Part shown: in pieces, positions 13,039 to 14,241 of the stretch | Layout of the letters: the number at the start of each line of letters is the position of its first letter | How positions within the stretch are numbered: position 1 is the stretch's first letter | From: a virus | Virus record (IMG/VR): IMGVR_UViG_3300038717_000004 | Location: 1-20,103 of that record | Reading direction: 5' to 3' (one strand) | Length of the DNA stretch: 20,103 bases | Program-made: the position numbers and the translations under genes | The notes under the pieces: model-generated | Seen by the model: the letters and a program-made list of their open reading frames with translations, nothing else | Databases searched by the model: none | Told to the model about the DNA's origin: nothing

Positions 13039-13508
13039 TAGCAACTACTTATATCATTATCTATTAATATATCCATTGTTGCTGCCCATCCAGCTAATCT
13101 GTTTTCAAACCTTTCATAGAAAGGCTCACAAGTAGGGTCGCCCTCTAATTGATATTTTGTTGTATATAACGAGCCTCCTCTAAGCAGAAGTATAATTCTG
13201 TTCAATACTGCTAATTGAGTGTTAAGTATATCTTGCTCATTGTCATTACCAACAAATATATCTGTCTCTGCATCTTTGTATTCGTTTACAACATCCATAG
13301 CCATTATAGTTATATTAAAAGACAATGTTTGTTCTTGAGCTGTAACACTATTTACTATAATATGCGCTAAAGGGAATATTGTTTGTTTGTTTAAATCTAT
13401 TTGTGTTATATCTCCAGTTGTTACAGAGTTTACGTTACTATCATTTAGTAGGTTTGTTTTTATTGTATCTGTAATTTGGTAAAAACCTCTTATACCTTGA
13501 TTGCTCAT
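13038..13508 (-). CDS. Tail terminator / completion-like protein (156 aa)
   Basis: 156 aa, start ATG 13508. Contains YQITDTIKTNLLNDSNVNSV, TGDITQIDLNKQTIFPLAHI, a core of three to four hydrophobic beta strands, FVGNDNEQDILNTQLAVLN and a C-terminal CEPFYERFENRLAGW segment. I recognise this as a common Bacteroidota phage tail protein and think its alpha/beta fold and size fit a tail terminator, but that assignment is inferred. Its start codon overlaps the TGA that ends the -1-frame product of the chaperone gene, so the frameshifted ribosome would finish exactly at this start (ATGA). Confidence 0.65.
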   Translation of the reverse strand: MSNQGIRGFYQITDTIKTNLLNDSNVNSVTTGDITQIDLNKQTIFPLAHIIVNSVTAQEQTLSFNITIMAMDVVNEYKDAETDIFVGNDNEQDILNTQLAVLNRIILLLRGGSLYTTKYQLEGDPTCEPFYERFENRLAGWAATMDILIDNDISSC

Positions 13509-13759
13509 CTCATTTTACTTTTTAATTGTTTCGTTTCTATGTCGCTTTTTTCTTTCATAAATGTTAGCATTGTTAAACATCTGTGTAAATTTAATTGAGT
13601 GATATTCTCAAATCGTCTAATATCTCCCTGAGAGAGTGCATAAATTGATTGATACCATCCCCACTTTTCACCAAACTGTTGGACTCCTGTAAGTGAAGCT
13701 CCTGCTTGTCCTGAAAATAATACGTCATAATCTTCGATAAGTCCATCCCTAAACGGTAA
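13505..13759 (-). CDS. -1-frame extension of the tail assembly chaperone (84 codons, no start codon)
   Basis: Open in the -1 frame relative to the chaperone gene from the T-run at 13767-13758 down to TGA 13507-13505; the frame is free of stops from about 13800. It contains no ATG, GTG or TTG codon until residue 64, so it can be translated only by entering from the chaperone frame. The 84 residues read LPFRDGLIEDYDVLFSGQAG, later FGEKWGWYQSIYALSQGDI, RRFENITQLNLHRCLTML and a Lys-rich end. The KWGWYQS-Y and LHRCL segments are typical of a conserved phage family, and third codon positions are AT-rich as elsewhere. The fused product would be 245 aa (161 + 84). An error in the T10 run that merely split one gene is the alternative. 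Confidence 0.75.
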   Translation of the reverse strand, partial: LPFRDGLIEDYDVLFSGQAGASLTGVQQFGEKWGWYQSIYALSQGDIRRFENITQLNLHRCLTMLTFMKEKSDIETKQLKSKMR

Positions 13760-14241
13760 AAAAAAAACATTGATCCGAACACTACATTCATCGGCATATC
13801 TTTATACACTTCTTGACCTTGTGCTGTATAGTCCTCAATACTATATTTGTGTTTGTATTTGTTCTGTATAGGCCTGTATAAAACCGCCATAGCCTTTTCC
13901 ATTTCATCCCAATTAGATATGTACGTGTCGAGATCAACATACTCACCTAAGCTCATCTCATCTAAGTTTGGTATAAAACCATACTCAATTCCATTCATTG
14001 TAAATCTATTTATAAGCTGAGGCTTCTGTTCAAACATATCTGATATAGTTTTGGTTATACTATTGACATCTTTGAGCTTCATTTGAAAGGCTTGTTTGTT
14101 GTCTATATGACAAAATATCTCTATCATCTTAGTTGCTAAAAAGTTCTCATCTTTATTCTCCTCTTGTGCTTTTAAAAACTTTTGGTATTGACTTAGTTTG
14201 ATTTCTGACAAGTTATTTGGTACAGTTATTTTTACTCTCAT
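13591..14241 (-). CDS. Tail assembly chaperone-like protein, frame 0 product
   Basis: 216 aa from ATG 14241; a TTG at 14277 in frame is rejected because it lies in the promoter-like region. Sequence opens MRVKITVPNNLSEIKLSQYQ, has ATKMIEIFCHIDNKQ, PQLINRFTMNGIEYGFIPNL, DEMSLGEYVDLD and a MAVLYRPI segment, then DMPMNVVFGSMFFF and a last part with SGDGINQFMHSLREI. I recognise the FIPNLDEMSLGEY...MAVLYRPI...MPMNVVFG set from Bacteroidota phages upstream of tail genes. By analogy with lambda gpG it would bind the tape measure protein during tail assembly; this is context-based. It is the first gene after a terminator and a promoter-like motif. Codons 159-161 form the frameshift site. Confidence 0.75.
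   Translation of the reverse strand: MRVKITVPNNLSEIKLSQYQKFLKAQEENKDENFLATKMIEIFCHIDNKQAFQMKLKDVNSITKTISDMFEQKPQLINRFTMNGIEYGFIPNLDEMSLGEYVDLDTYISNWDEMEKAMAVLYRPIQNKYKHKYSIEDYTAQGQEVYKDMPMNVVFGSMFFFYRLGMDLSKIMTYYFQDKQELHLQESNSLVKSGDGINQFMHSLREILDDLRISLN
13758..13770 (-). promoter_or_regulatory. Putative -1 ribosomal frameshift site (ATG plus T10)
   Basis: On the minus strand the chaperone frame reads ATG TTT TTT TTT TAC. Ten consecutive T include the heptamer T TTT TTT, the strongest form of the X XXY YYZ slip pattern, in the right phase for a -1 shift. Shifting back one base gives TTA CCG and enters the conserved 84-codon frame. Slippage by RNA polymerase on the same run (one extra U) would produce the same protein. 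Confidence 0.7.

Follow-up and report, generated by a model that had tools for sequence, protein, structure and literature searches.

Reading frames and neighboring genes

The window, which is the whole stretch of 20,103 nucleotides analyzed here, comes from a record that is a linear virus fragment of 20.1 kb. On its minus strand lies a gene whose bases can be read in two frames. Straight reading from 14241 to 13591 gives a zero-frame product (the short form) of 216 amino acids (aa) plus a stop codon, which was modeled by AlphaFold with a mean pLDDT of 80 and whose stop position is shared by most near relatives. Late in this frame, the sequence ATG TTT TTT TTT TAC (13770-13756, minus strand) holds a run of ten T's (13767-13758; U10 in the mRNA) that contains an in-phase U_UUU_UUU. 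The −1 frame (13759-13505, minus strand) runs for 84 codons before its TGA, with its first ATG at codon 64. The two frames and the run had been noted in a preliminary description of this DNA, and all of them were recovered at the same positions.

A −1 shift at the run would produce a 245-aa fusion (the long form). Both products would share an N-terminal domain of 161 codons (14241-13759, minus strand), and the fusion would continue into the −1 frame extension, a KWGWYQS-containing domain that aligns to the C terminus of homologues encoded by one continuous open reading frame (ORF). From 13758 to 13594 on the minus strand, the same bases encode a 55-codon zero-frame tail (YRLGMDL...ISLN) and part of the −1 frame, forming a predicted dual-coded overlap. 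A TAG in the +1 frame (13751-13749, minus strand) stands shortly after the run, and the −1 frame stop overlaps the start of the next gene as ATGA (13508-13505, minus strand), again as first described.

That next gene (13508-13038, minus strand; 156 aa, PHROG 30964) encodes a product that resembles a tail terminator, and it is followed by a gene for a 168-aa protein (13044-12538, minus strand; PHROG 29822) that resembles an HK97-gp10-type tail completion protein; both assignments are provisional. The tape measure protein (631 aa; 8717-6822, minus strand) was identified by a match to PHROG 3336, tail length tape measure (E value, 7e-9), and its gene begins 4.8 kb downstream, close to the 5 kb originally estimated. 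The gene order from 16607 to 230 on the minus strand is unusual: terminase, the recoded putative chaperone, the probable terminator and completion genes, tape measure, a probable capsid gene, and a probable tail-tube gene. Tail genes thus precede the capsid gene, with the probable capsid at 3909-3013 and the probable tail-tube protein at 2945-2421. Close together upstream of the terminase genes are two different DNA-methyltransferase-like ORFs with DPPY motifs (17580-16921 and 18585-17968, minus strand).

Conservation of the split gene

A search with the 245-aa fusion matched 114 relatives, and in all 80 of those first fetched an in-phase T run joins a zero frame to a downstream −1 frame. When the −1 domain, a divergent N-terminal alignment, and the Nonlabens phage P12024L protein were used as further queries, the set grew to about 286 loci in 64 lineages of low nucleotide similarity. 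The relatives share one layout, consisting of a zero frame of ∼216 aa, a run of T9 to T11, and a −1 frame of 79 to 92 codons that extends up to the start of the next gene; this start falls within −14 to +4 nt of the −1 frame stop in 63 of the 64 lineages. Run lengths were T9 (225 loci), T10 (60 loci), and T11 (1 locus), and neither T7 nor T8 occurred at the junction in any of the ∼286 loci. Four apparent T5 cases from an automatic scan were two mis-picked T9 loci (L273 and L274) and one continuous-ORF phage present twice.

The split was found in two isolated phages, Nonlabens phages P12024L and P12024S, and in the assembled genomes of Flagellimonas onchidii and Galbibacter pacificus. A genome scan with a single sequence as the query gave no matches; with an alignment as the query it gave nine loci. 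Based on the members in Nonlabens phages, Flagellimonas, and Galbibacter, the hosts are probably Flavobacteriaceae-type bacteria. In the P12024L record (JQ823123.1; locus L082, 12001-12695), gp40 and gp41 are annotated as two hypothetical proteins that are actually one T9 recoded gene, as is also the case in P12024S. In both phages, the −1 piece begins well upstream of the annotated ATG.

The T run was present in every split relative checked, which argues that the shift is real. Judged by comparison of these genomes, the T-run split is a conserved recoding far beyond chance, and the two-product recoding is real and deeply conserved. This bears out the preliminary description of a −1 recoding with 216- and 245-aa products in a flavobacterial-type phage. 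Single-base changes in homopolymers are among the easiest mutations, and one such change here would fuse the gene. No relative with the split had a T count that makes a single continuous gene, and the −1 region was conserved in every one of them. As the fusing change was never seen, both products appear to be needed.

RNA polymerase or ribosome

It was originally assumed that the ribosome slips at this site, and an in-phase T_TTT_TTT or T_TTT_TTN heptamer is indeed present in every lineage. In a purely ribosomal −1 shift, two Phe-tRNAs would slip together on U_UUU_UUU, the mode known from lambda G/GT and P2 E/E′. The prior is against polymerase slippage because the experimentally studied G/GT-type shifts are ribosomal. 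Those covered in one review are of this kind, some of them without a stimulator (PMC5009743), and H_HH.U_UU.Y heptamers are efficient in Escherichia coli (PMC4066793). However, a T_TTT_TTN heptamer takes only seven bases, six or seven of them T's, whereas every lineage has nine or more. Runs of at least T9 are maintained despite differing flanks (NTT TTT TTT TAY/TGG; NTT TTT TTT TTN; TTT TTT TTT TAY or CTG; AGT TTT TTT TTT CGT or CAT; and ACT TTT TTT TTG), such that a T lost on one flank of the run is a T gained on the other. For transcriptional slippage, one paper sets the threshold at nine consecutive A's or T's (PMC5009743) and another at Tn with n > 8 (PMC3711429); all of the ∼286 loci carry an uninterrupted run that reaches it, with T9 the shortest. 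The T≥9 rule can follow in part from the conserved hydrophobic-Phe-Phe-aromatic amino acids encoded at the junction.

A second line of evidence comes from the Z base, the third base of the second slippery codon, which is silent in both frames. This base was T in 48 of 48 lineages, where 22 to 33% C is expected, and the doubly silent alternative T_TTT_TTC was never found (0 of 48). The expectation is based on the frequency of C at equivalent doubly silent sites of the overlap (33%; 26/78) and among Phe codons of other genes that stand in the same context (22%; 90/408). The absence of C has a P value of about 7e-6 to 4e-9, neglecting the remaining relatedness of the lineages. E. coli ribosomes shift on U_UUC no less readily than on U_UUU (PMC4066793). 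Assuming E. coli slip preferences, a ribosomal site would leave the Z base free to become any equally slippery silent base, and no such freedom was observed. Flavobacterial ribosomes may nevertheless slip more readily on UUU than on UUC, and the invariant T would then be accounted for by the ribosome alone.

No signal of a stimulatory RNA structure emerged from a pseudoknot-free analysis of the 60 nt that follow the run in 45 lineages (mean z, ∼0.1). A downstream stem-loop was accordingly rejected as the stimulator. Such structures are frequent at ribosomal −1 shift sites without being required, and the lack of a conserved one at this place counts against a ribosomal shift.

A +1-frame stop occurs within 0 to 3 codons after the run in 64 of 64 lineages; further on, such stops occur at 10% per codon. 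It would end products that carry two extra U's or lack one, and it may be a by-product of conserved Leu/Arg codons, with most cases also forced by conserved amino acids. Elsewhere in these phages, T runs of nine or more numbered four versus 19.5 expected (606 kb), and T7 was avoided in all three phases in other genes; this avoidance, like the lack of a stimulatory structure, favors polymerase slippage. More generally, A and T runs of at least seven bases are depleted in all three phases of coding sequence (606 kb of other genes, all fetched loci), and the depletion grows with length, reaching 0.14 of the expected number for A10 and 0.2 for T9.

Based on the T≥9 rule and the invariant T at the Z site, we lean to polymerase slippage over a purely ribosomal shift. 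We give an even chance to the reading that RNA polymerase slips on the U9-U11 run and adds a single additional U there. The fuller proposal, that a Bacteroidota phage clade makes its tail chaperone pair by polymerase slippage at an obligatory run of T≥9, with a dual-coded second C terminus and a third-frame stop that truncates the remaining slippage products, falls just short of an even chance. The purely ribosomal shift is a serious contender, although we rate it somewhat lower still. It is improbable that polymerase and ribosome both slip or that the two are undecidable. A search of the open literature, subscription journals lying outside its scope, yielded no paper on a T-run tail chaperone or on transcriptional slippage in a tail gene.

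A putative tail assembly chaperone

By its design and position rather than by homology, the encoded protein is likely a tail assembly chaperone. Whichever machine slips, we hold with good confidence that a chaperone-like tail gene is recoded into two products and that this recoding is conserved. In the proposed mechanism, a programmed −1 shift at the obligatory T9-T11 run would yield two proteins with a common N terminus. Straight reading would give the 216-aa short form, and the shift would give the 245-aa long form, which would carry the KWGWY domain and correspond to the protein that other phage families encode in full in a single ORF. The pair would act like lambda G/GT: the short form, the more abundant, would coat the tape measure protein, and recruitment of tail-tube subunits would fall to the scarcer long form.

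The recoded gene lies upstream of the tape measure gene in the window, in Cellulophaga phage Ingeline, and in Flavobacterium phage laban6-1, separated from it by four genes in the window and by two in Ingeline. In neither the window nor Ingeline does it lie directly between the major tail protein and tape measure genes, as lambda-type chaperone genes do. Two predicted products with a shared N terminus, from a putative shift near the end of the first ORF, fit the lambda G/GT design that was first proposed. Database comparisons gave faint hints of function: 11 of 29 members touched PHROG 166, annotated as "tail protein" (E values down to 3e-4), and the tail assembly chaperone ctCpR1 was a weak match in BFVD (E value, 0.023; probability, 0.96). 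The PDB returned neither a fold nor a sequence match, and Pfam contained no family for this protein; the family is unannotated, with weak fold evidence. The fold model of the −1 domain alone was of low confidence (pLDDT, 64).

Alternatively, the recoding could be real and the product could be some other neck or tail-joining protein that is produced in two lengths. The gene adjoins the probable terminator and completion genes instead of directly preceding the tape measure gene, and the protein has no recognized chaperone family or fold. We nevertheless consider this alternative unlikely, given the two-length design with a shared N terminus, the place before the tape measure gene in several phage families, and the weak chaperone and tail matches in BFVD and PHROG.

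Homologues encoded by a continuous ORF

Flavobacterium phage 6H was among the relatives picked up by a fold search. One continuous ORF of 259 to 301 aa encodes the protein in Flavobacterium phages 2A, FPSV-F7, and laban6-1, Cellulophaga phage Ingeline, Polaribacter phage Leef, and Microcystis phage Mea-Yong924-1. When aligned to this family with hhalign, the zero-frame protein matched up to residue 162, which is the slip point (E value, 1.2e-7), whereas the match of the trans-frame fusion crossed the junction and extended to residue 205 (E value, 1.2e-10). The zero-frame tail alone had no hhalign match to the continuous-ORF homologues. The −1 domain alone matched weakly and in the right register, with an E value of 0.013 for the core set and 1.9e-4 with divergent members included, compared with 0.09 for a reversed-sequence control. 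Because the fusion matches across the slip point and the zero-frame protein only up to it, the long form most likely corresponds to the ancestral protein and the zero-frame tail to a lineage-specific overprint.

These alignments across the junction also bear on the idea that the locus holds two separate genes, with the −1 frame translated from its own start and no fusion made. The P12024L record is annotated in this way. However, the first 45 codons of the −1 frame are free of ATG in 62 of 64 lineages, and only 14 of 64 lineages have any ATG, GTG, or TTG near the junction. We regard separate genes as very improbable.

Flavobacterium phage 6H (NC_021867.1; locus L157, 10352-10927) also has an apparent split. 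Relative to the near-identical phages 2A, 23T, and FPSV, a 2-nt difference truncates its gp10, and the remainder of the frame falls in a gap without annotation; 2A and the FPSV isolates are 2 nt shorter in this region. The 6H split is probably a sequence error.

Selection on both frames of the overlap

In the overlap, substitutions are spread nearly evenly over the three codon positions (0.20/0.20/0.25). The corresponding values are 0.18/0.13/0.40 in the zero-frame-only part and 0.11/0.23/0.15 in the −1-only part, where the maximum falls at the −1 third position. When the −1 protein was kept and synonyms were redrawn, the zero frame stayed open in 0.1 to 16% of trials per lineage (∼1% in most), which rules out zero-frame openness as a by-product. 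When the zero-frame protein was kept, the −1 frame stayed open in 0 to 2% of trials per lineage. On this substitution and redraw evidence, both frames of the ∼55-codon overlap are under selection, i.e., the overlap is dual coding. We give almost no credence to a homopolymer sequencing error or decayed gene whose true sequence is one continuous ORF: homopolymers are error-prone and 6H provides a probable error case that is continuous in 2A and the FPSV isolates, but the same split is conserved across hundreds of assemblies made independently, as well as in the genomes of isolated phages and in assembled bacterial genomes, which rules this out, and the constraint on both frames contradicts error or decay.

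Implications and comparison with known systems

If the polymerase slips, the tail chaperone ratio, a classic paradigm of ribosomal frameshifting, would have been solved a second way, with the product ratio set by the host polymerase and not by the ribosome. Even if the shift is ribosomal, an unannotated chaperone-like family is named here whose slip site can be recognized in hundreds of phage contigs and in a few isolates, and split-gene annotations can be corrected from that site. The phages also suggest an evolutionary series, from a continuous gene in some phage families to a split gene with an overprinted second C terminus in this clade.

Among the closest known systems are Duneviridae PHROG 25418 (2A, laban6-1, and Ingeline) and Microcystis phage Mea-Yong924-1. 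Their proteins are homologous to the long form over the whole length, including the C-terminal domain; unlike the gene described here, theirs is a single ORF of 259 to 301 aa with T6 at most and no split.

Lambda-type chaperones bind the tape measure protein, are absent from virions, and are made at a short-to-long ratio of about 30:1. As in our phages, lambda gpG/gpGT involves a −1 shift late in the first ORF, a common N terminus, and a location among the tail genes, before the tape measure gene. The slip site is G_GGA_AAG in lambda and a T9-T11 run here, and we found no ranking that would place U UUU UUU above the lambda site, as had been claimed. Unlike in lambda, the zero frame here continues for 55 dual-coded codons, and four genes intervene before the tape measure gene. 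Phage P2 E/E′ is a tail operon −1 frameshift that, as in our phages, falls at a T-rich heptamer and has an overlapping frame, but its heptamer is T_TTT_TTG, in place of nine or more consecutive T's. The P2 frameshift has the higher efficiency (PMC5009743).

Thermus thermophilus dnaX and Shigella mxiE are bacterial genes in which slippage has been shown by experiment, whereas in these phages we infer it; as here, an A/T run of at least nine bases is associated with two products per gene.
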